From: an uncultured Actinomycetes bacterium
GTDB taxonomy: Bacteria; Actinomycetota; Acidimicrobiia; Acidimicrobiales; RAAP-2
Assembly (NCBI GenBank): GCA_903900235.1
Contig: CAIUMH010000015.1
Location: forward strand, 1 to 49,863
DNA length: 49,863 nt
Direction of reading: 5' to 3'
Shown here piece by piece: positions 20,338 through 47,658 of this stretch. Position 1 is the first letter of the stretch. Every line of letters begins with the position of its first letter. The position numbers and the translations under genes are program-made. The notes beneath the pieces are model-generated. The model worked only from the letters and a program-made list of their open reading frames with translations. It did not search any database and was not told the origin of the DNA.

Positions 20338-20732
20338 CAGTTGCTCTCTTCCATCTGTCGCTTAATCTCTGCGAGTCCTCGGGACGTGGCGGAACCAATC
20401 ACAAGGCTCATGATCCTCGGCTCCGTGTCGGTCGTGTACATGAGCAAAGTCCTGCCATCTTCGAGGCCAATGGCATCCAAGGTGCCGTGATGCTGACTCA
20501 GGATCGGCAGGTTCAAGGTGTACTGGATCCGCCGAAGGATGGGGTCAACAATGAGGATCTGCTCGTCGATCGACACCCCAGAGTTCGACACAATCGTCCG
20601 AGTAGTGCCCTCGACGGGCGATGCAGAGAAGTCCGGGAACCACTCGTGAAGGCGCGAGGGGTCGCCGATGCGCTCCCAGACCGCCTCAACGGGGGCGTCG
20701 ATCTCAATGTGGTAGCGAACTCCGCCGTACAT
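20337..20732 (-). CDS. SRPBCC (polyketide cyclase/START-like) protein
   Basis: Single-domain helix-grip protein of 131 aa with a hydrophobic ligand cavity. The start YHIEIDAPVEAVWERIGDPSRLHEWFP is the typical SRPBCC N-terminus, and the last helix ends the protein. Members bind lipids, polyketides or aromatic compounds and some are enzymes; no catalytic residue can be assigned. Both ends overlap neighbours by one base in TGATG arrangements (20732 with the dehalogenase, 20337 with the sulfatase), so the three proteins are made together and probably act on the same compound. Confidence 0.85.
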   Translation of the reverse strand: MYGGVRYHIEIDAPVEAVWERIGDPSRLHEWFPDFSASPVEGTTRTIVSNSGVSIDEQILIVDPILRRIQYTLNLPILSQHHGTLDAIGLEDGRTLLMYTTDTEPRIMSLVIGSATSRGLAEIKRQMEESN

Positions 20733-21649
20733 CAGCTCTCCTTCTGACTCGACATGACGTCAAGCACGATCTGAGCGAGTTGCGGCCCGGCATCCTCCTG
20801 GATGAAGTGGCCGCCTCGCTCAATGATGACATGTGATTGGCCGTCTGCTCCGGCTATGTGCTCCTTGAACCAGACCTCAGAGCCCTTTGTCACGGGGTCC
20901 GAATCGCCAAAGGCCGTCACGAATGGCCGGGAGAATTCGGTCAATGCTTTCAGGGCGAGCTCATTCTCGGCCGCGCTCGGTGCGTCTGCGCTGGCCGGGA
21001 CAAGCGTCGGGAACATCCTCGCCCCCGCCTTCGCCTCCTCGGTGTCGAACGGGGCATCGTAGGCCGCGATCACGTCGGGGGAAAGGTCGGTGACACAGCC
21101 ACCGTTGATGATGTGACCCACCGGGAAGGTCTCGACACTCTGAGAGAAGTCCCGCCAGGCGAAGAAGGCATCACTGAGCTTGGTCTTGCCGATGGGGAGG
21201 AAGGTGTTCGAGGCCACCACGGCGGAGAAGCGCTCCGGCTCGGCCGCCACGAGACGCAGGCCGAGCAGGCCGCCCCAGTCCTGGCAGAACAGGGTGACAT
21301 CTCGGAGATCGAGTGCACCGAAGACATGACTGCGCAACCACAAGACATTGCGCTCATAGGTGTAGGCCGCCCTGTCCGTGGGCTTGTCGGACCGGCCGAA
21401 GCCCACGAGGTCAGGGGCGATGACCCGACAGCCAGCGGAGACGAGCGGCGGGATCATGGTGCGGTAGAGATAGGACCACGAGGGCTCGCCGTGGAGCAGG
21501 AGCACTACAGGACCGTTGGCTGGGCCCTCATCGATGTGGTGGACGCGGAGCGTTGCGCCCTCAGTGTCGTCGATTTCGACATAGTGCGGGGCGAATGAGT
21601 ACCCAGGAAGGTCGTCGAACCGATCATCAGGTGTACGGGCGATATTCAT
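20732..21649 (-). CDS. Haloalkane dehalogenase-like alpha/beta hydrolase
   Basis: Alpha/beta-hydrolase of 305 aa resembling haloalkane dehalogenases, which replace a halide with hydroxyl by attack of an Asp. The oxyanion-hole motif is HGEPSWSYLYR, and the nucleophile elbow CQDWGG has Asp124 followed by the halide-binding Trp125. The catalytic acid may be in FGDSDPVTKG and the His is His281 in ERGGHFIQED. An Asp nucleophile is shared with epoxide hydrolases, but the elbow and HGEPSW favour dehalogenase. AAGGAG lies about 5 nt before the ATG. It is the first gene of the coupled operon with SRPBCC and sulfatase, behind a 23-bp imperfect palindrome. Confidence 0.88.
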   Translation of the reverse strand: MNIARTPDDRFDDLPGYSFAPHYVEIDDTEGATLRVHHIDEGPANGPVVLLLHGEPSWSYLYRTMIPPLVSAGCRVIAPDLVGFGRSDKPTDRAAYTYERNVLWLRSHVFGALDLRDVTLFCQDWGGLLGLRLVAAEPERFSAVVASNTFLPIGKTKLSDAFFAWRDFSQSVETFPVGHIINGGCVTDLSPDVIAAYDAPFDTEEAKAGARMFPTLVPASADAPSAAENELALKALTEFSRPFVTAFGDSDPVTKGSEVWFKEHIAGADGQSHVIIERGGHFIQEDAGPQLAQIVLDVMSSQKES

Positions 21650-35823: not shown

Positions 35824-37128
35824 TCAGGACTGCTCGGCCGTCAGCAACTCGAGCATCGTCGCGAACTTCTCCTTGGCCGCCGCCTGGCGTGTGGGGATGT
35901 GCTCGGTCGGGATCTCTGATGGTGAGTAGCCCTTGAGCACCGAGCGCGCGACCGTCTGGCGATGGACCTCGTCGGGGCCGTCATAGATCCGCGCCGCGCG
36001 CGCTGCTCGGTACATGTGCTCGAGTGGCATGTCGGAGGAGTAGCCGAGCGACCCATAGGTCTGCAATGCCCGGTCGATCACGTTGTAGAGCACCTGCGCT
36101 CCGTAGTACTTGATCATGGCGATCTCGACCCTCGAAGCCGAGGCGCCGACCTTGTCCATCTTCCATGCTGCTTGGATTGTCATCAGTCGGGCCGCGTGCA
36201 TCTCGGCCATCGAGTCGGCGATCCAATTCTGCACGGTCTGCTTCTCCGCCAGCACGGACCCATGGGTGAAGCGAGACAATGCCCGCTCGCACATCATGTC
36301 GAAGGCTCGCTGCGACTGACCGAGCCAGCGCATGCAGTGGTGGATCCGTCCGGGTCCGAGGCGAGCCTGCGCCAGGGCGAAGCCCGCGCCCTCGACGCCA
36401 ATCAGATTCTCCTTCGGGACCCGCACCGACTCATAGAGGACCTCGGCATGGTTGCCGAACTTCCCGTAGACCACCGTCGGATCGTCCATCGACCCAACGT
36501 CACGCAAGATCGTGAGCCCGGGGGTGTCAACCGGCACGATGATCATTGACGAGCCCTGATACGGGTGGACGTCGGGGTTGGTGACCGCCATGACGATGAG
36601 GAAGTTGGCCACCGACCCATTGGTCGTGTACCACTTGCGCCCGTCAATCACCCACTCGTCGCCGTCAAGGAAGGCCCGGGTTTTCAAAAGGGTCGGGTCC
36701 GATCCTGCGGTGTGCGGCTCGGTCATCGAGAAGCCGCTGCGCAGCCGCCCCTCAAGGAGTGGTTCGAGCCAGCGCTCGCGATGCGATTCATCACCCGACA
36801 TCTCCATCCCAACGGCGATGAGTTCGGCATTGCCGGAGTCGGGGGCATTGTTTCCAAATACCAGGGGCCCGTAGGGAGTCTGACCCAGGATCTCGTGCAT
36901 CAGGCCGAGCTTGAGCTGCCCGAATCCGCCGCCACCGAGCTCGACGGGAAGGTGCGCTGCCCACAAGCCTCGAGCCTTGACCTCCTCCTGGAGTGGCTTG
37001 ATCAGTGCCACCACCTGGTCGTAGCTGAGTGCCAATGTCTCGATCGGGAAGATTTCCTCGCGCACGAAGGTGCGCATCCACGCCAGCTTCTCTTCGAACT
37101 CAGGGTCTGTCTCGAAGTCCCAGGCCAT
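35824..37128 (-). CDS. Acyl-CoA dehydrogenase (FadE-type) with Asp at the usual catalytic Glu
   Basis: FAD-dependent acyl-CoA dehydrogenase of 434 aa that makes the alpha,beta double bond of a CoA thioester. FAD/substrate motifs include FSMTEPHTAGSDPTLL and KWYTTNGSVANFLIV, with LGPGRIHHCMRWLGQSQRAFDMM in the C-domain. The C-terminal helix has IYDGPDEVHRQTVAR, where Asp383 stands at the position of the catalytic Glu of typical members, as in the ACAD10/11-like group. It therefore probably handles a 4-hydroxylated, branched or ring-bearing acyl-CoA. GAGGAG lies 6 nt before the ATG. It is divergent from the LLM gene with the KstR-like operator between them. Confidence 0.93.
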   Translation of the reverse strand: MAWDFETDPEFEEKLAWMRTFVREEIFPIETLALSYDQVVALIKPLQEEVKARGLWAAHLPVELGGGGFGQLKLGLMHEILGQTPYGPLVFGNNAPDSGNAELIAVGMEMSGDESHRERWLEPLLEGRLRSGFSMTEPHTAGSDPTLLKTRAFLDGDEWVIDGRKWYTTNGSVANFLIVMAVTNPDVHPYQGSSMIIVPVDTPGLTILRDVGSMDDPTVVYGKFGNHAEVLYESVRVPKENLIGVEGAGFALAQARLGPGRIHHCMRWLGQSQRAFDMMCERALSRFTHGSVLAEKQTVQNWIADSMAEMHAARLMTIQAAWKMDKVGASASRVEIAMIKYYGAQVLYNVIDRALQTYGSLGYSSDMPLEHMYRAARAARIYDGPDEVHRQTVARSVLKGYSPSEIPTEHIPTRQAAAKEKFATMLELLTAEQS

Positions 37129-37260
37129 TGATGCTCCTCACGGGTCCGCTCGGGCCATCTCGGCCCAAGGTCTTCTCTCTCACTAGCACCGCCCGGCACC
37201 CCTCGGCCACCCTGAGCCTCCGCTGATGGCGGCGGCGAGGGGGCACGAGCTTCCGCACTC

Positions 37261-37289
37261 TTGACACCAAGTAGAACCTGTTCTAGTTT
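37261..37289 (+). promoter_or_regulatory. Promoter with embedded KstR-like operator
   Basis: TTGACA (37261-37266) and TAGTTT (37284-37289) are spaced 17 nt apart, a textbook -35/-10 pair. Between and into the -10 lies TAGAACCTGTTCTA (37272-37285), a perfect palindrome that matches the mycobacterial KstR consensus TnnAACnnGTTnnA at every fixed base. A repressor bound there would cover the promoter. It should control the LLM gene at 37342 and perhaps the divergent acyl-CoA dehydrogenase. Confidence 0.75.
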
Positions 37290-37341
37290 TCGAGCGACGG
37301 TCGGGCGGGCATCGGCTAAGCCGAGAGGAAGAGGTATCACC

Positions 37342-38541
37342 ATGGAGTTCGGCATCTTCATCAACGGTTATCTGCCGGGGCCGGCCTCCCGCGACACCGA
37401 CGCCGAGCACCTCATGCTCGAGCGGGAGATCTCCTATGGGGTCACCGCCGACCTCTACAACTGGAAGTACGCCTGGTACGGCGAGCACCACGCTCTCACG
37501 GAGTACTCGCACATGTCGGCGCCCGAGCCCATCATGGGCATGGTGGCGGCGCGAACTGACCGCATCCACATCGGCACGGGCATCAACAGTCTCTCGCCCC
37601 GCAAAGAGCATCCCGTGCGCTACGCCGAGCGCGCCGCGATGATGGACCACATCACCAACCGACGCTTCGAGTGGGGCACCGGCCGGGGAGCCGGCAGCCA
37701 CGAGATGGCGAGCTTCAACATCCTTGACAAGGACTCGACCAAGGCTGAGTGGAACGAGGTCATCCGCCAGATCCCGCGAATGTGGGAGCAGCGTGACTAC
37801 ATGTACGAGGGCGAAAGCTTCACCGTCCCGACCCCTCACAACATCCTGCCCAAGCCCTATGGCCCCGGGCACCCACCGATCTGGGTCGCCTGCGGCAACC
37901 CTGCGACCTTCGCCCAGGCAGGCGAGATGGGTATTGGTGCCATCGCCTTCAACTTTGAGCCGGTCTTTGGACTCAAGGGCCGTATCGACGCATACAAAGA
38001 GGGCATTGCCAACTGCACCGAACCAGTCGGGCAGTTCGTCAACGACAACGTGATGCTCACAAATGCCGTGATCTGCCTCGCCGACCGCAAGCGAGCTCGG
38101 GAGATCGCCCTGCGCGAGTGTCGTGGCTACCTCTACTCGCTGGTGTGCCTCTACCACGACACCATCCCCAAGCCCGACTATGCGCCGACCTGGCCCGAGA
38201 CCATCGGCGGGGTCCCCGACGAAGAGACCCTCGACCATCTCATCGAGGCCGGATGGCTGCTGTGCGGCGAGCCTGATGAGGTCGCCGAGCAGCTCGCCCG
38301 CTACGAGCAGGTTGGCTGCGACCAGGTCGTCTTCGGCCTGCCATCGGACTCGATGGAGCACGACGAAGTGCTCGAGATGCTCGAGGTCTTCGGGACCAAG
38401 GTCATCCCACAGTTCGACACCGACCCGGTGCACCGGACCACTCGCCTGCGCCAGTCTGCCGTGCGCAAGTACCCCGACTTCAGCTTCGATGTCCCTGACA
38501 TCTCGGTCGCCAACCTGCCGACAAACGCACTCATCCGTTAG
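37342..38541 (+). CDS. LLM class flavin-dependent oxidoreductase (KstR-like promoter)
   Basis: Luciferase-like monooxygenase-fold protein of 399 aa. Its start MEFGIFINGYLPGP and NWKYAWYGEHHALTEYSHMS are typical of the bacterial luciferase family, as are MVAARTDRIHIGTGI, RRFEWGTGRGAGSHE and LPKPYGPGHPPIWVACGNPATFAQAGEMG. FMN or F420 could be the cofactor. The ATG at 37342 has a weak purine-rich site upstream and the leader would be about 46 nt. The gene is the first behind the KstR-like operator. In this setting it is a candidate monooxygenase or Baeyer-Villiger-like enzyme of sterol or isoprenoid breakdown, but this is inference. Confidence 0.9.
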   Translation: MEFGIFINGYLPGPASRDTDAEHLMLEREISYGVTADLYNWKYAWYGEHHALTEYSHMSAPEPIMGMVAARTDRIHIGTGINSLSPRKEHPVRYAERAAMMDHITNRRFEWGTGRGAGSHEMASFNILDKDSTKAEWNEVIRQIPRMWEQRDYMYEGESFTVPTPHNILPKPYGPGHPPIWVACGNPATFAQAGEMGIGAIAFNFEPVFGLKGRIDAYKEGIANCTEPVGQFVNDNVMLTNAVICLADRKRAREIALRECRGYLYSLVCLYHDTIPKPDYAPTWPETIGGVPDEETLDHLIEAGWLLCGEPDEVAEQLARYEQVGCDQVVFGLPSDSMEHDEVLEMLEVFGTKVIPQFDTDPVHRTTRLRQSAVRKYPDFSFDVPDISVANLPTNALIR

Positions 38542-38624: not shown

Positions 38625-39104
38625 GTGATCACCATCGGAGTTGTCGACACGATGTTCGCCCGCCACGACATGGGGGCCGATGCGCTTGAGGAACTCGCCT
38701 CATGCCCGGGCCATGGTGAGACATTCAACGTCCTGCGCAGGACAGTTCCCGGCTTCAAAGACCTTGCCGTGGCCGCAAAGTTGATGATCGAGCGCGACGG
38801 GGCCTCCATCGTCATCGCCTGCGGCATGCCGGGATCTGCCGATATCGACAAGGTGTGTGCCCATGAGGCCAGCCAGGGCCTCATGCAGGCTCAGCTCATG
38901 ACCTCCACGCCGATCCTCGAGGTCTTCGTCTACGAGGACGAAGCCGACGACGACGCCACCTTGGCCATGGTCTTCGAGAACCGAACCAAGGGTCACGCCC
39001 GCAACGCCTACTGGCTGCTGTTCGAGCCCGACCAGCTCGTGGCTCGAGCCGGCCGCGGGATCCGCCAGGGCTTCGGCGACGCTGGCCCCCTCCTCACCGC
39101 TTGA
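38625..39104 (+). CDS. ribC: Riboflavin synthase, archaeal (RibC) type
   Basis: Protein of 159 aa that matches the archaeal riboflavin synthase family, which makes riboflavin from two 6,7-dimethyl-8-ribityllumazine molecules and is related to lumazine synthase, not to bacterial RibE. The whole length fits: IGVVDTMFARHDM, RRTVPGFKDLAVAAK, VIACGMPGSADIDKVCAHEAS, GLMQAQLMTSTPILEVFVYEDEA and RQGFGDAGP. One conserved position (archaeal His in MTNKHIIEVFVHEDE) reads Pro here. AAGGAGG lies 6 nt before the GTG start. It follows a flavoprotein gene on the same strand and converges with another, so its job may be extra flavin supply. Whether the genome also has bacterial RibE cannot be seen. Confidence 0.88.
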   Translation: MITIGVVDTMFARHDMGADALEELASCPGHGETFNVLRRTVPGFKDLAVAAKLMIERDGASIVIACGMPGSADIDKVCAHEASQGLMQAQLMTSTPILEVFVYEDEADDDATLAMVFENRTKGHARNAYWLLFEPDQLVARAGRGIRQGFGDAGPLLTA

Positions 39105-39129: not shown

Positions 39130-40233
39130 TCAGCCCTCGAGGTCCCGAGGCAGTCCGAGTACGCGTTCGGCAATGATGTTGCGCTGCACCACCGAGGTCC
39201 CCCCACCGATGGTTAGCGACGGTGAGAAGGTGAAGCACCAGGACCACATGACGTCGTGAGGCTCGAGAACCCCGCCCACCGCCGCCATTCCGAGCAGGTC
39301 GACCGCCAAGGTGGCGGCGTCCTGGCCCACCTCGTCGGCCAGTGCCTTGCGGACAGAGGCTTCGGGTCCCGGCGTCCGACCGGCGAGCACCGCTGCGACC
39401 AGGCGGAGCTTGAGCATCCGGAGGGCTTCGGCCCGCACCCAGAGCGACGTGAGGCGCTCGGCGGCGACCGCGTCGACTCCGATCCGACGGGCCAAGTCCA
39501 CGAGGTCGTCGATGACCGGGCCCATCCCCCACATCAGGCCGTCGCCCGACAGCGACACTCGCTCGTTCGCCAGGGTCACCTTGGCGAGGCGCCAGCCGTC
39601 GTTGACTTCGCCGATCACGTGGTCAGCCGGGATCCGCACCTCGTCGAGAAACACCTCATTGAAGGTGTGATTGCCTGTCATGTCCACAAGGGGGCGGACC
39701 TCCAAACCCGGTGCATCCATGGGACAGACGAAGTAGGTGATTCCGTGATGGCGCTCCGCCTCAGGGCTGGTGCGCGCCAGCAGGATTCCGAACTTGGCTC
39801 GATGGGCGTAGCTGGTCCAGACCTTCTGGCCCGTGACCACCCACTCGTCGCCGTCGCGCACCGCCTGGGTCGACAGCGCCGAGAGGTCCGACCCGGCCGC
39901 CGGTTCTGAGAACAACTGACACCAGAACTCCTCGCCAGAGAGCAGCCCCGGAAGCCATCGCTGCTGCTGTTCCACGGTGCCAGCCGCCAACAGCGTGGGG
40001 CCTGCCCAGCCGATCCCGATTGGGTTATCTGGACGGCGGACGTTGGCCGTCCGCAAGATGGCGTCGATCACCAGCTGATCCGCCGGAGCGGCACCGAGGC
40101 CCCACGGAGCCGGCCAGTGGGGCACCACATAGCCCGCTTGTGCCAACTGCTCACCGGTTGGGGCGGGGTGGGCCGCAAGCCATGCGGAGAGTTCGTCGGC
40201 CGCCGAAGCGACAAGATTCTGGTTATCGTGCAC
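39130..40233 (-). CDS. Acyl-CoA dehydrogenase
   Basis: FAD-dependent acyl-CoA dehydrogenase of 367 aa, slightly short for the family. Motifs are WCQLFSEPAAGSDLSALS for substrate and FAD binding, VVTGQKVWTSYAHRAKFGILLART in the beta domain, and GGGTSVVQRNIIAERVLGLPRDLEG at the C-terminus. TSVVQ replaces the usual TSEIQ, so the catalytic base must be elsewhere, as in the actinobacterial FadE/ChsE-like subunits that work as heteromers. A missing base in one subunit would fit a two-gene heterotetramer, and the dehydrogenase at 35824 is a possible partner. The start is a GTG. It converges on the ribC gene and is divergent from the FadD-type gene at 40274. Confidence 0.9.
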   Translation of the reverse strand: MHDNQNLVASAADELSAWLAAHPAPTGEQLAQAGYVVPHWPAPWGLGAAPADQLVIDAILRTANVRRPDNPIGIGWAGPTLLAAGTVEQQQRWLPGLLSGEEFWCQLFSEPAAGSDLSALSTQAVRDGDEWVVTGQKVWTSYAHRAKFGILLARTSPEAERHHGITYFVCPMDAPGLEVRPLVDMTGNHTFNEVFLDEVRIPADHVIGEVNDGWRLAKVTLANERVSLSGDGLMWGMGPVIDDLVDLARRIGVDAVAAERLTSLWVRAEALRMLKLRLVAAVLAGRTPGPEASVRKALADEVGQDAATLAVDLLGMAAVGGVLEPHDVMWSWCFTFSPSLTIGGGTSVVQRNIIAERVLGLPRDLEG

Positions 40234-40273: not shown

Positions 40274-41893
40274 ATGACCGAGTGGAACTACGCCGATGCC
40301 TGGGAGTCGATCGCCGCGATCCAACCCGACCAGCCAGCCATCATCCAAGGTGAGCGCACTATCTCGTGGGGGCAGTTCGAGGCCCGATCGGCCGGAGTTG
40401 CCGGGTGGCTCTCCTCGCTTGGTGCTGTCCATCAGGACAAGGTGGCTCTCTACCTCTACAACTGCCCCGAATACATGGAGGGCGTGTTCGCCAGCCTTCG
40501 GATCGGACTCGTCCCGGTCAACACCAACTACCGATACGGCGACGAAGAGCTGCTCTACCTCTGGGACAATGCCGATGCCATCGCTGTCGTGTTCCATGGC
40601 TCGTTCACCGAGCGCATCGAAGGCATCCGCTCCCAGGCCGACAAGGTCAAGGGCTGGCTCTTCGTCGACGATGGCTCCGGAGCATGCCCCGACTGGGCGA
40701 CCCCCTACGAGCAGGTAGCCGCCGAGCCCGCTGGCGACCTTCCGCTGGCGGCGCAGCGGACCCCTGATGACCTGGTCATGCTCTACACCGGCGGCACCAC
40801 CGGGATGCCCAAGGGCGTCATGTGGCGCCAGGACGACCTCTTCGCTCGCCTCAACCCTGCTGGCTTCCGCCGCTTCGATGAGACCGCGGGCGTGGCCGGC
40901 ATCGCTGACGCCGTCCGCAATGAGGGACCGGGTCTCGCTCTGCTCCCGGCCTGCCCCTTGATGCACGGGACCGGGCTGTTCACCGCCCTCGAGGTGCTCG
41001 CCGAGGGCGGCAGGCTCGTCCTGCTCCCCACGCGCAAGTTCCTCCCCGACGAGCTCGCCGCCACCATCGACGACAAGGGAGTCAACGTCGCCGTGATCGT
41101 GGGCGACCCCTTCGCCCGACCCCTGCTCGACGTCGTCCGGGCCGACCCTGAGCGCTACACGCTCTCGTCGCTGGTCATCATCATGTCCTCGGGTGCCATG
41201 TGGTCAGAGGAGATTAAGCAGGGACTCCTCGCACACCACGGCGCAATGATGCTCGTCGATGCCTTCTCCTCGTCCGAAGCCCTCGGCATGGGTAGCTCGA
41301 TCTCCACCGCCGACAAGGCTGCCTCCACCGGGGAGTTCACCCTCGGCCCGGAGGTCCGCGTCATCGACGAGGACGGCGTAGACGTCACCCCGGGCTCCGA
41401 CACCGTAGGGGTGCTCGCACTCGGCGGGCGCAACCCGCTCGGCTACTACAAGGACGCGGCCAAGTCCGACGCCACCTTCCGCATGATCGACGGAGCCCGC
41501 TACAGCGTGCCAGGTGACCACGCCAGGGTCCGGGTCGACGGGTCGATCCAGCTGCTCGGGCGGGGCAGCCAGTGCATCAACACCGCTGGCGAGAAGGTCT
41601 ACCCCGAAGAGGTTGAGGAGGTGCTCAAGCGCCACCCCCTCGTCGTCGATGCCTGCGTCGTGGGAATCCCAGACGACCGAACCGGCGAGCGCATCATCGC
41701 GGCCGTCGAAACCATGCCTGGAGCCGACCTCCCTTCTGAGGCCGAGATCATCGAGCACGTCAAGGCAGCGCTCTCCCACTACAAGGCCCCCAAGGGGGTG
41801 CGCTTCGTCGTCACTATCGGCAGGGCCGCAAACGGGAAGATGGAATATTCCCGGCACAAGGCCGAGGCCATCGCCTGGGTCGCTGGATCGTGA
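40274..41893 (+). CDS. Acyl-CoA synthetase (FadD-type, AMP-forming)
   Basis: ATP-dependent acyl-CoA ligase of 539 aa. The phosphate loop is MLYTGGTTGMPKGVMWR, the A5-like motif is FSSSEALGMGSS, and the AMP-binding Asp/Arg block is YSVPGDHARVRVDGSIQLLGR. The C-terminal Lys lies in RAANGKMEYSRH. It belongs to the actinobacterial FadD3/17/19-like branch that activates steroid side chains and other bulky acids. GAGGGGGG lies 5-6 nt before the ATG. It is followed by a second synthetase of the same branch, about 40 nt downstream, which has its own KstR-like box. Confidence 0.94.
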   Translation: MTEWNYADAWESIAAIQPDQPAIIQGERTISWGQFEARSAGVAGWLSSLGAVHQDKVALYLYNCPEYMEGVFASLRIGLVPVNTNYRYGDEELLYLWDNADAIAVVFHGSFTERIEGIRSQADKVKGWLFVDDGSGACPDWATPYEQVAAEPAGDLPLAAQRTPDDLVMLYTGGTTGMPKGVMWRQDDLFARLNPAGFRRFDETAGVAGIADAVRNEGPGLALLPACPLMHGTGLFTALEVLAEGGRLVLLPTRKFLPDELAATIDDKGVNVAVIVGDPFARPLLDVVRADPERYTLSSLVIIMSSGAMWSEEIKQGLLAHHGAMMLVDAFSSSEALGMGSSISTADKAASTGEFTLGPEVRVIDEDGVDVTPGSDTVGVLALGGRNPLGYYKDAAKSDATFRMIDGARYSVPGDHARVRVDGSIQLLGRGSQCINTAGEKVYPEEVEEVLKRHPLVVDACVVGIPDDRTGERIIAAVETMPGADLPSEAEIIEHVKAALSHYKAPKGVRFVVTIGRAANGKMEYSRHKAEAIAWVAGS

Positions 41894-41907: not shown

Positions 41908-41923
41908 GGGAACGTGTTCTAAT
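41908..41923 (+). promoter_or_regulatory. KstR-like box overlapping a -10 element upstream of the FadD19-like gene
   Basis: GGGAACGTGTTCTA (41908-41921) fits TnnAACnnGTTnnA at all fixed bases but the first (G for T), and its core GAACgtGTTC is palindromic. It overlaps TCTAAT (41918-41923), a likely -10 nine nt before the GTG at 41933. The transcript would have almost no leader. Repression by blocking RNA polymerase is inferred. Confidence 0.6.
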
Positions 41924-41932
41924 CTCACCACC

Positions 41933-43549
41933 GTGACCTTCAACCTTGCTGATCTGTTCGAAGCTGCGGTCGACGAATTCTCTGAGCGCGAGTACCTCGT
42001 CGCCGATGGCCAGCGCCGCACCTATGGCGAGATGGAAGAGCGGGCCAACCGCCTTGCCCATCACCTCGCTGCCGCCGGCATCGGACCAGGTGACCACGTG
42101 GGGATCTATTCGTACAACTCGATCGAGTGGGTCGAGATCGCCTGGGCGGTGTTCAAGATCCGAGCGGTCTGGATCAATATCAACTACCGCTATGTCGAGG
42201 AGGAATTGCGCTACCTCTTCACCAATGCTGATCTCAAGGCCCTCATCTTCCAACGCGAGTTCGCCCCACACGTGGCGGCGCTGCGAGACGAGCTGCCCAC
42301 CCTCGAGCACCTGATCATCATTGAGGACGGCACCGAGAGTCCCGACCCCGGCGGCGACGTCGTGGCCTATGAAGACGCCATGGCGAGCGGATCGCCAGTC
42401 CGTGACTTTGGCCCCCGCTCCGACGAGGACATCTACATCCTCTACACCGGCGGCACCACGGGCATGCCCAAGGGTGTGGTGTGGCAGCACAAGGATGTGG
42501 TCTACGCCCTCGGCGGTGGGGTCGATCCGCTGTCGAACACCCGGATCGAGCGACCCGAAGAGTTCGTAGAGCGTGGCGCAGGCGGCATGGTCATCACCCA
42601 CTTCCCCATCGCTCCGCTGATGCACGGCGCCACGCAGTGGTCGGTCCTTGGCCGAAGCTTCGTGGGCGATCGGATCGTGCTGACCGCCCGCTTCGACCCC
42701 GTCGCCGTCTGGGAGACAGTGGTTGCCGAGAAGGTGAACTCCATGATGGTTACTGGCGACGCCATGGCCAAGCCACTCGTCGAGGTCCTCGACGAGCACC
42801 TCGCGGAGTTCGACTTCTCCAACCTCTTCGCGGTGGTGTCGTCGGCGGCGCTGTTCAGTGCACCGGTCAAGGATCGCTACTTCGTCCACCTGCCCAACAT
42901 CATGATCACCGATGCCATCGGCTCATCGGAGTCTGGGAACAATGGCATGACCATGGTTACCAAGGACACCACCGCCATGAAGTCCGGTCCGACGGTGTCA
43001 CGCCTTGGCGACACCGTCGTGTTCGACGAGGACCTTGTCCAAGTCGAGCCCGGGTCCGGCGTGATTGGCAAGATTGCCCGATCGGGTGATATCCCCGTCG
43101 GCTACTACAACGACCCGGTCAAGACCGCAGAGACCTTCATCACGGTCGACGGCACCCGATTCGTCATGCCTGGTGACTTCGCCACCGTCGAGGCCGATGG
43201 ATCCATCACGTTGCTTGGCCGCGGTTCCGTGGTGATCAACTCGGGTGGGGAGAAGATCTTCCCCGAGGAGGTCGAGTCAGCCGTGCGCAGCCACCCGGCG
43301 GTCATCGATGCCATCGTCTGTGGGGCCCCCGACGAGCGTTGGGGCCAAACCGTCGCCGCCATCATCGCCCCTCGTGAGGGCCAGGGGGCGACGCTCGCAG
43401 AGATCCAGGAGCATTGCCGGTCATACATCGCCGGCTACAAACTCCCGCGTCGACTGTTCGTCGTCGACACCATCCAGCGGTCACCGTCGGGCAAGCCCGA
43501 CTACCGATGGGCCACCGCCATCGTGGAGAACGACACCCCGGCCGACTAG
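41933..43549 (+). CDS. Acyl-CoA synthetase, FadD19-like
   Basis: AMP-forming acyl-CoA ligase of 538 aa closest in feel to mycobacterial FadD19, which attaches CoA to steroid C24-branched side chains. Motifs are ILYTGGTTGMPKGVVWQHKD, PLMHGATQWSVLG, VSSAALFSAPVKDRYF, ITDAIGSSESG, the AMP/Mg block MPGDFATVEADGSITLLGRG, and SGGEKIFPEEVE with the C-terminal Lys in RSPSGKPDYRW. The whole layout, including RYVEEELRYLF, follows FadD19. A KstR-like box overlaps its -10. The GTG start has no ribosome-binding site and is probably leaderless. The isochorismatase-like gene begins at the very next base after its stop. Confidence 0.93.
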   Translation: MTFNLADLFEAAVDEFSEREYLVADGQRRTYGEMEERANRLAHHLAAAGIGPGDHVGIYSYNSIEWVEIAWAVFKIRAVWININYRYVEEELRYLFTNADLKALIFQREFAPHVAALRDELPTLEHLIIIEDGTESPDPGGDVVAYEDAMASGSPVRDFGPRSDEDIYILYTGGTTGMPKGVVWQHKDVVYALGGGVDPLSNTRIERPEEFVERGAGGMVITHFPIAPLMHGATQWSVLGRSFVGDRIVLTARFDPVAVWETVVAEKVNSMMVTGDAMAKPLVEVLDEHLAEFDFSNLFAVVSSAALFSAPVKDRYFVHLPNIMITDAIGSSESGNNGMTMVTKDTTAMKSGPTVSRLGDTVVFDEDLVQVEPGSGVIGKIARSGDIPVGYYNDPVKTAETFITVDGTRFVMPGDFATVEADGSITLLGRGSVVINSGGEKIFPEEVESAVRSHPAVIDAIVCGAPDERWGQTVAAIIAPREGQGATLAEIQEHCRSYIAGYKLPRRLFVVDTIQRSPSGKPDYRWATAIVENDTPAD

Positions 43550-45978: not shown

Positions 45979-47658
45979 ATGGTTCAGGAGCACACGATGG
46001 CAGCGCTCGTCCTGGCGTTGGCAGAGAACGAGTCGCCAGGCATCCTGACCGCCGACCGCACCCTGACCCACGCCGAGGCGGTCAGCGAGGCAGCCACCCG
46101 CGGCGCATGGCTCCTCGCCCAGCGCCAGCCGGGGCCGTTCCATGTCGCCATCCTCCTTGACAATACCGTCGACTTCCTCCTCTGGCTCGAGGCTGCAGCG
46201 CTGGTCGGCGCCGTCGTCGTCGGTGCCAACTCCACCCACCGAGGCGACGAACTCGCCCGGGACCTCTCCCACACCGAGTGCCAGCTTGTCGTCACCTCGT
46301 CGGCTCACCTCCCGCTCGTCGACGGCCTCGACCTCGGGCCGGCGATCGGCACGGTGCATGGCGCATCAGACCGTGTCCTCGTCGTCGACGCCACCAGTGC
46401 TGTCGATGCGCTGCGGCCGCACCTCGGCGCCACCGCCCACGACGTGGTCGATCACGACATCTCGCCGGCCACGCTGGGCTACCTGCTCTTCACCTCCGGC
46501 ACGTCCGGTGCCCCAAAGGCCGTGCGATGCACCCAGGGTCGCCTGGCTGGCATCTCCCAGATCGTCTGCCAGATGACGCCGCTCGGGCCCGAGGACGTTT
46601 CCTACGTGGCCATGCCGCTCTTCCACTCCAACGCGCTGATGGCCGGATGGGGGCCCAGCATTGCCGGAGGAAGCGCCGTGGCACTCCCCAGCGGCGGGCG
46701 CTTCTCCGCCCACGGCTTCATCGAGGACGTGCGGCGCCACGGCGTCACCTACTTCAACTACGTCGGAAAGCCGCTCTCCTACATCCTGGCCACCGAGGAG
46801 CGACCGGACGACGCCGACACCACCCTGCGGACCTGCTTCGGCAACGAGGCCACCGTCGACGACATCGACCGGTTCGCCGACCGGTTCGGGTGCACGGTGA
46901 ACGATGCCTACGGATCGTCCGAGGGCGGGGCCACGGTGACGCGGACCGCTGATACGCCCAAGGGTGCCCTCGGTCGCGCACCTTTTGAGGGGACCGTGGT
47001 GCTCGACCCAGAGAATCTCGAGGAGTGCCCGGTGGCCGAGTTCGACGAGGCGGGACGTCTGCTCAACGCCGACACCTGCATCGGCGAGCTGGTCTCGAAG
47101 ACCGGTGGCTCGAGCTTCGAGGGCTACTGGGCCAATGATGGCGCCATGGAGGCCCGCCTCCGCAATGGTTGGTACTGGACCGGCGACCTCGCCTACCGGG
47201 ACGCGGCGGGGTTCTTGTACTTCGCCGGGAGGGATCACGACTGGATCCGGGTCGACGGCGAGAACTTCGCCGCCGCCCCGATCGAGCGCATCCTCGGCCG
47301 GCATCCAGACGTCATCCTGGCCGCCGTCTTCGCCGTCCCCGACGAGCACGTCGGAGACCAGGTCATGGCCGCCCTCGAGATCTCCGCCGGCGCTCCACCC
47401 TTCGACCCGTCGGCGTTCGCCGCCTTCCTCGCCGACCAGGGGGACCTCGGGACCAAGTGGGCCCCGAAGTACATCCGGCTGACCGACCACCTCCCGAAGA
47501 CGGCCACCTCCAAGGTCGTCAAGAAGGGCCTGCGGGCCGAACGCTGGAGGACGCGTGACAAGGTCTGGTGGCGCCCCAGCCCCTCCTCGCCCTACGAGCT
47601 ACTCGGCGACGCCGACGCGGCGCGTCTCGAAGAGACGGTCGCCGACCGGATCCTGTGA
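45979..47658 (+). CDS. Acyl-CoA synthetase (FadD1/17-like, AMP-forming)
   Basis: Acyl-CoA ligase of 559 aa, of a different branch from the two upstream. The phosphate loop is LLFTSGTSGAPKAVRCTQ, the A5-like motif is VNDAYGSSEGGATV, the AMP/Mg block is YWTGDLAYRDAAGFLYFAGR, and the catalytic Lys lies in PKTATSKVVKKG. It recalls FadD1/FadD17 ligases for long-chain or steroid-derived acids. The ATG at 45979 follows a GGGGGG-rich site; a second ATG at 45997 is possible. A TAGATT box at 45944-45949 could be its -10. No KstR-like box is seen in front of it. Confidence 0.92.
   Translation: MVQEHTMAALVLALAENESPGILTADRTLTHAEAVSEAATRGAWLLAQRQPGPFHVAILLDNTVDFLLWLEAAALVGAVVVGANSTHRGDELARDLSHTECQLVVTSSAHLPLVDGLDLGPAIGTVHGASDRVLVVDATSAVDALRPHLGATAHDVVDHDISPATLGYLLFTSGTSGAPKAVRCTQGRLAGISQIVCQMTPLGPEDVSYVAMPLFHSNALMAGWGPSIAGGSAVALPSGGRFSAHGFIEDVRRHGVTYFNYVGKPLSYILATEERPDDADTTLRTCFGNEATVDDIDRFADRFGCTVNDAYGSSEGGATVTRTADTPKGALGRAPFEGTVVLDPENLEECPVAEFDEAGRLLNADTCIGELVSKTGGSSFEGYWANDGAMEARLRNGWYWTGDLAYRDAAGFLYFAGRDHDWIRVDGENFAAAPIERILGRHPDVILAAVFAVPDEHVGDQVMAALEISAGAPPFDPSAFAAFLADQGDLGTKWAPKYIRLTDHLPKTATSKVVKKGLRAERWRTRDKVWWRPSPSSPYELLGDADAARLEETVADRIL

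Follow-up and report, generated by a model that had tools for sequence, protein, structure and literature searches.

A KstR-type operator and a predicted sterol side-chain regulon in a genome of the class Acidimicrobiia

In the window (the whole stretch of 49,863 nucleotides that was analysed), a KstR-type operator lies in front of a gene for a luciferase-like (LLM) oxidoreductase, and this site is very probably the operator of a KstR-like TetR repressor that is encoded elsewhere in the same genome (contig C68) and would control a sterol side-chain regulon. KstR itself is a sterol-responsive repressor of mycobacteria and rhodococci. Computed here, from the 2.40-Mb genome (96.55% complete, 157 contigs) and its relatives, were the presence of the site, how rare it is and where it lies, the families of the target genes, the homology of the regulator and how often gene and site occur together.

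The operator TAGAACCTGTTCTA (37272-37285, no strand assigned) is the only exact match to the KstR consensus TnnAACnnGTTnnA in the window (six matches versus 3.3 expected when one mismatch is allowed) and is palindromic throughout except for its two central bases, the strongest form of this core being TAGAACnnGTTCTA. As the sequence-only reading had proposed, it occupies most of the 17-base spacer between a -35 element TTGACA (37261-37266, plus strand, six of six consensus positions) and a -10 element TAGTTT (37284-37289, plus strand, fitting TAnnnT), its two final bases being part of the latter as well, i.e. it is intergenic and overlaps the predicted promoter of a putative regulon gene. The description of this promoter as a textbook one held for the -35 element but not for the -10 element, which agrees with the consensus at three of six positions, and a consensus promoter scan of 37130-37345 reported no promoter. 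The operator is separated by 56 bases from the ATG of the LLM gene (37342) and by 143 bases from the start of a divergent acyl-CoA dehydrogenase (ACAD) gene. Nine operators of the genome were checked for promoters: besides the site at 37272, only C31:31462 has a comparable -35 element (TTGACG, five of six), indicating that the promoter overlap is clear at some operators and not at others. In the parts of Kendall et al. (2007; PMC1995591) that deal with the motif, the same palindrome TAGAAC(N2)GTTCTA partly overlaps the -10 element of the M. tuberculosis kstR promoter, and the identical 14-mer TAGAACCTGTTCTA is listed within the EMSA-positive Rv3520c/Rv3521 site; in the table of that paper the GAGAACACGTTCTA site of MSMEG_2645 is EMSA-positive and the near-match Rv0223c negative. 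The GAGAACACGTTCTA form is also present here, on C31. A second, imperfect operator, GGGAACGTGTTCTA (41908-41921, no strand assigned, two mismatches), lies just 5' of a fadD gene of the window starting at 41933.

Enrichment in the genome was seen for the full palindrome but not for the loose consensus. TnnAACnnGTTnnA occurs at 13 places genome-wide versus 14 for the reversed pattern and was rejected as evidence, since on its own it proves nothing. TAGAACnnGTTCTA, in contrast, is found exactly at three places (C15, C114, C143) and its reversed control at none; order 1-3 Markov models trained on 294,646 bases from this genome, overlapping loci included, predict 0.003-0.007 exact copies. With one mismatch there are three places (C31 twice, C106) and with two there are 21. 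Up to two mismatches the reversed control was the commoner of the two (149 versus 27 places), so only near-perfect copies are informative; the two-mismatch places, 17 of which lie inside called ORFs, were discarded as evidence, and copies with no more than one mismatch retained. All six of the latter are intergenic versus four of the 21 with two mismatches (C15:41908, C20:5975, C114:6536, C133:43846; Fisher p = 7e-4, genes being called with our own codon-usage script rather than a curated caller). The operators are spread over six contigs of this fragmented assembly. A palindrome arising by chance between two genes would fit the loose consensus, which stands at the chance level in window and genome alike; it is an exceedingly improbable explanation for exact copies in such excess over expectation, all of them intergenic and beside related gene families.

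The first gene 3' of the operator encodes the LLM oxidoreductase (37342-38541, plus strand; PF00296, 139 bits), for which the best 25 of 27 NCBIfam families all scored below their cut-offs. It is followed after 83 bases by a gene for an archaeal-type riboflavin synthase (38625-39104, plus strand; TIGR01506, 170.9 bits, cut-off 100.55), possibly co-transcribed with it. The presence of a riboflavin synthase of this type in an actinobacterial genome is an observation in its own right, its closest solved relative being 2b98 (E 1.5e-48). Across the operator lies the divergent ACAD gene (35824-37128, minus strand; ACAD families, below cut-offs), and beyond it a cytochrome P450 gene (34609-35808, plus strand) which has no operator of its own and whose product is nearest to CYP125, the steroid C26-monooxygenase (PDB matches: CYP125MRCA 322 and 319 bits, next CYP126 247). 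Further downstream are a second ACAD gene (39130-40233, minus strand) and two genes for acyl-CoA ligases of the PRK07798 subfamily, which we take to be the FadD19 type (cut-off 543): one at 40274-41893 (plus strand, 582 bits) and one at 41933-43549 (plus strand, 660 bits over the first 496 residues). A third ligase (45979-47658, plus strand) is nearest to CasI (steroid-22-oyl-CoA synthetase) and FadD1/FadD17, all below cut-off (CasI 620 bits, cut-off 900; FadD1 545, cut-off 800; FadD17 500, cut-off 850).

The other operators of the genome have similar surroundings: near-perfect copies lie upstream of ACAD, FadD, thiolase, Ltp and LLM genes, in line with the clustering that the sequence-only reading had anticipated. 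On C114, two operators precede an igr-like operon of an ACAD (best PDB match 6wy8 with 507 bits, 4x28 with 427), a ChsH2-like protein (matching 6ok1_B and 4wnb), a second ACAD, a MaoC-like protein (26.0 bits, cut-off 27) and Ltp2 (6ok1_A, 573 bits; PRK07855, 661 bits, cut-off 469), with an LLM gene on the opposite side. The best solved relatives of this operon are thus Ltp2-ChsH2 (6ok1) and the ACAD Tcur3483 (6wy8) of Thermomonospora curvata, which we take to be steroid side-chain enzymes. The first part of C20 and the last part of C114 align over 478 bases with 5 differences, so the two contigs probably adjoin in the genome. Around a further operator on C20 are an Rv3520c-type LLM gene (TIGR03559, 468 bits, cut-off 335), an ACAD pair and a thiolase gene (PRK07851, presumably the FadA6 type; 662 bits, cut-off 580). 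On C31, one operator has behind it genes for FadA5 (PRK07850, steroid 3-ketoacyl-CoA thiolase; 675 bits, above the equivalog cut-off of 515), an MFS transporter and an EchA19-like hydratase (EchA19 373 bits, cut-off 400; PRK07799 404 bits, cut-off 316), and the other is flanked by genes for a FadD (best model 459 bits, cut-off 850) and an SDR. The operator on C106 is followed by genes for two OB-fold ChsH2_C proteins and then for PRK07937 (535 bits, cut-off 419) and PRK08313 (681 bits, cut-off 514) proteins, which we assume to be Ltp4 and Ltp3, respectively. The operator on C143 lies at the gene for a fused ACAD of 625 residues, for which no NCBIfam model exceeded its cut-off; as this protein shows only 32% similarity over part of its length to a 742-residue ACAD of the relative G110, its identification as FadE34 is a guess. 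Going by operator position only, the sites appear placed to control the sterol side-chain genes fadA5, ltp2, chsH, fadE and echA19.

Upstream of the C143 operator, by about 4.5 kb, ends a tandem of Delta4-(5alpha)-ketosteroid dehydrogenase-like genes (C143:2036-4811; PF00890, two strong matches). An assignment of the pair as KstD was rejected: the first gene scored 469 bits with 4at0 versus 99 bits with the 3-ketosteroid dehydrogenase 4c3x, and the second was compared with NCBIfam only. A similar tandem arrangement, its second match incomplete, is seen on contig C31 of G047, a member of the same family. In this relative the orthologues of fadA5 and of the EchA19-like gene are adjacent, and the MFS transporter gene that separates them here (L048:13911-15593, minus strand) is missing.

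The KstR-like TetR gene that had been predicted for this genome is found on C68 (L047:5077-5670, minus strand). Among PDB entries its product matched KstR best (E 2.8e-29), then the Rhodococcus protein 3bjb (2.2e-25) and then Mce3R (2.5e-10), and it contains the TetR_C_20 ligand domain (PF17925, 58.2 bits, cut-off 26.5), as does the mycobacterial TetR repressor KstR. The KstR family NF033703 was its sole NCBIfam match at 1e-15, with 141.4 bits, i.e. below the equivalog cut-off of 280; by this score the protein is KstR-like and lies outside the NCBI KstR equivalog. Scores with NF033703 were 135-156 bits in six relatives and 199.5 bits in a Streptomyces (L193). The helix-turn-helix stretch is identical to that of M. 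tuberculosis KstR at 25 of 33 positions. In a Foldseek search with the AlphaFold model (pLDDT 91.8), the top 17 chains were KstR (TMq 0.79-0.86; 34-36% identity in the structural alignments), followed by six chains of 3bjb and then a clear drop; these closest folds include M. tuberculosis KstR with operator DNA (5fmp, TMq 0.86) and with 3-oxo-4-cholesten-26-oyl-CoA (5cw8, cholestenoyl-CoA-bound).

A different TetR paralogue might occupy the operators in place of the KstR-like protein, given that the genome has 23 TetR_N matches in 21 frames, of which the family-library scans took in the KstR-like protein and one neighbour, and that the KstR-like gene is itself without an operator (no site in the 97 bases up to a divergent TetR gene). 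We consider this improbable: the KstR-like protein was the only match in the genome to its own sequence at E <= 1e-10 (16 of 33 first-look candidates scored), and across the class the site is found together with the gene, in many relatives at a short distance from it.

The class survey covered 198 genomes taken from a larger group. A KstR-like gene was found in 61 of them at E <= 1e-10 and in 56 at 1e-25 (for most genomes only 16 first-look candidates were scored), and the exact operator in 46, with 113 sites. Of these 46 genomes, 41 are among the 56 with the gene (Fisher p = 2.7e-24, relatedness ignored, from a table compiled by hand from the survey counts); 15 of the 56 have the gene and no exact site, and five genomes have a site and no gene. 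The gene-bearing 56 contain 108 exact sites versus 5 in the other 142, the corresponding numbers for the reversed control being 4 and 22. In the family of the window, sites were present in both genomes with the KstR-like gene and in none of the 11 without it. The exact operator tracks the KstR-like gene closely and could thus be used as a genome-wide marker of sterol-responsive genes in metagenome-assembled genomes.

The surroundings of the kstR-like gene were examined at 29 loci of relatives, taken as the best of the 61 genomes, with flanks of about 1.5 kb and approximate start codons. Eight of these loci have an operator-like site 22-153 bases in front of the gene, and four more have one about 1.26-1.28 kb upstream. 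In G110 and G184, the distant site precedes an ACAD-kstR pair whose ACAD resembles the one at 39130-40233 in the window. In 12 stretches from five relatives (G035, G047, G103, G110, G184), picked around known sites and genes and scanned for the kinds of site searched, none of the 18 sites is contained in a called gene, two overlapping the start of one by no more than 8 bases. Counterparts of the predicted targets follow operators in G110 (LLM 42%, fadD 54%, ACAD 60%, OB-fold operon 54%), in G047 (FadD/SDR, 74/79%) and in G103 (igr-like operon, 68%). The site of fadA5 is not conserved in G047, where no operator was found within three mismatches (best four, in about 240 bases upstream). G110, a single-contig genome, has a stretch of about 115 kb (L117-L122) with many operators, duplicated ltp/ACAD operons and two kstR-like genes.

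A wider search of genome contigs with 18 KstR-like sequences retained the top 80 out of 594 relatives. Among these 80, the nine nearest loci (L170-L178; 56-66% identity) are named Acidimicrobiaceae/Acidimicrobiales (five), Actinomycetes/actinobacterium (three) and Acidobacteriota (one), so that the other actinobacterial class suspected from the sequence is, as far as named relatives show, Acidimicrobiia; none of the nine has an operator site within the flanks. In the same 80, sites with at most one mismatch were found at 11 of the 33 non-Streptomyces loci (12 sites) and at eight of the 47 Streptomyces/Microtetraspora loci (eight sites, none exact), versus none for the reversed control in either set. 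These 47 loci, which lie between L193 and L248 and comprise Streptomyces and one Microtetraspora, thus have a KstR-like gene with few near-perfect operators nearby.

From these data we infer binding, repression, a CoA-thioester inducer and a sterol substrate. A repressor dimer sitting on the palindrome would mask the spacer together with the first bases of the -10 element and so block RNA polymerase at the LLM promoter and perhaps at the promoter of the divergent ACAD gene, an occlusion suggested by the geometry of operator and -10 element and by the mycobacterial case as set out in the motif sections of PMC1995591. Accumulating sterol side-chain CoA thioesters would then occupy the C-terminal domain and free the operator of the repressor, and this release would switch on the FadD ligases, the ACAD pairs, the ChsH1/ChsH2-like hydratase, the Ltp2 aldolase and FadA5 together with the EchA19-like hydratase, Ltp3/Ltp4 and the LLM proteins of the KstR-type regulon.

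Several parts of the mycobacterial pathway were looked for and not found. KshA_C (PF19298) has no match in this genome, whereas it is over the cut-off in 55 of the 198 class genomes (60 at E <= 0.001; 44 at >= 85 bits, a threshold of our own choice). At >= 85 bits, KshA is absent from 18 of the 56 genomes with a KstR-like gene, including this one and G047. None of the four Rieske matches in the genome (frames of 158, 117, 403 and 308 residues) resembles a ring-hydroxylating oxygenase, the 403-residue frame seeming to encode a membrane protein that ends in a Rieske domain. The Mce domain (PF02470) gave no match in the genome, six in G110 and none in six other relatives searched, the E. coli control being positive. 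BphC_D1, a proxy for HsaC, was present in one of ten genomes searched but not in this one, no known steroid degrader serving as positive control, and TIGR03217, a proxy for HsaF, was above cut-off in none of 12 genomes and likewise in none of 14 control genomes. An NCBIfam scan (1e-70) of ten candidate genes of the G110 cluster named no ring-degradation enzyme, and a Pfam scan of ten further genes of G110 and G184 named none except one KshA_C protein. In an assembly of 157 contigs, the absence of KshA, a Rieske oxygenase and Mce is no proof, but a complete mycobacterial-type cholesterol pathway is unsupported and the regulon looks confined to side-chain and perhaps A-ring steps. The sterol- or isoprenoid-degradation regulon of the earlier reading is therefore to be understood as one for the catabolism of the sterol side chain, perhaps with the A ring.

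The same gaps raise the question whether the regulon, though real, is used for a different isoprenoid acid, polycyclic or branched (a bile acid, hopanoid or terpenoid side chain), the repressor having shifted its ligand. The divergence of the KstR-like protein (141 of 280 bits) and the lack of KshA, a recognisable ring-hydroxylating Rieske oxygenase and Mce would agree with such a shift. We nevertheless judge it unlikely, because FadA5 exceeds the equivalog cut-off for steroid 3-ketoacyl-CoA thiolase, steroid side-chain enzymes are among the best solved relatives of Ltp2, ChsH2 and the ACAD, the P450 is nearest to CYP125, and the tandem ketosteroid dehydrogenase-like genes share a contig (C143) with one of the operators. 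Within the sterol reading that we prefer, a KstR-type regulon reduced to side-chain-only feeding is conceivable, albeit doubtful: acetyl-CoA and propionyl-CoA would be gained, and the nucleus, left unopened for want of a KshA-type ring cleavage, would be exported, perhaps via the MFS transporter whose gene separates fadA5 from the echA19-like gene on C31. If this were true, such Acidimicrobiia would be partial sterol degraders passing C19 steroids on to other organisms; whether sterols are partially degraded in the environment is a testable question that follows from the apparent lack of KshA.

The best-known counterpart is the regulon of KstR (Rv3574/MSMEG_6042) of mycobacteria, which in the portion of PMC1995591 on regulon members comprises fadA5, fadE26-29 and 34, fadD17 and 19, echA19 and ltp2-4, and relatives of many members adjoin the operators here. 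The mycobacterial system differs in belonging to another class, in having an operator at the repressor's own gene and in including mce4 uptake. The KstR2 motif differs from the KstR motif, and the likeness to the KstR2 regulon consists in the FadA6-type thiolase sharing the operator region on C20. In the relevant part of PMC4810484, KstR2 is the TetR control of later steroid steps. Within the literature searched, no paper combined Acidimicrobi- taxa and KstR. 'Acidimicrob' does not occur in the main text of the steroid-degrader surveys PMC4810484 and PMC5790920, as far as the available portion of each goes, and in the corresponding portions of two other papers Acidimicrobiales are named only as bearing sterol desaturase-like proteins (PMC11061730) and Acidimicrobiia only as slightly enriched in cholesterol-fed sludge and then declining (PMC6208644). 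The reading put forward here would extend the KstR-type switch, with a regulon for sterol side chains, to the class Acidimicrobiia.

Two minor observations concern other genes. Two proteins of about 400 residues (L033 on C148 and L036 on C77) each have two TetR_N matches, and the window contains a haloalkane dehalogenase-like gene (20732-21649, minus strand; PRK00870, 436 bits, cut-off 265).
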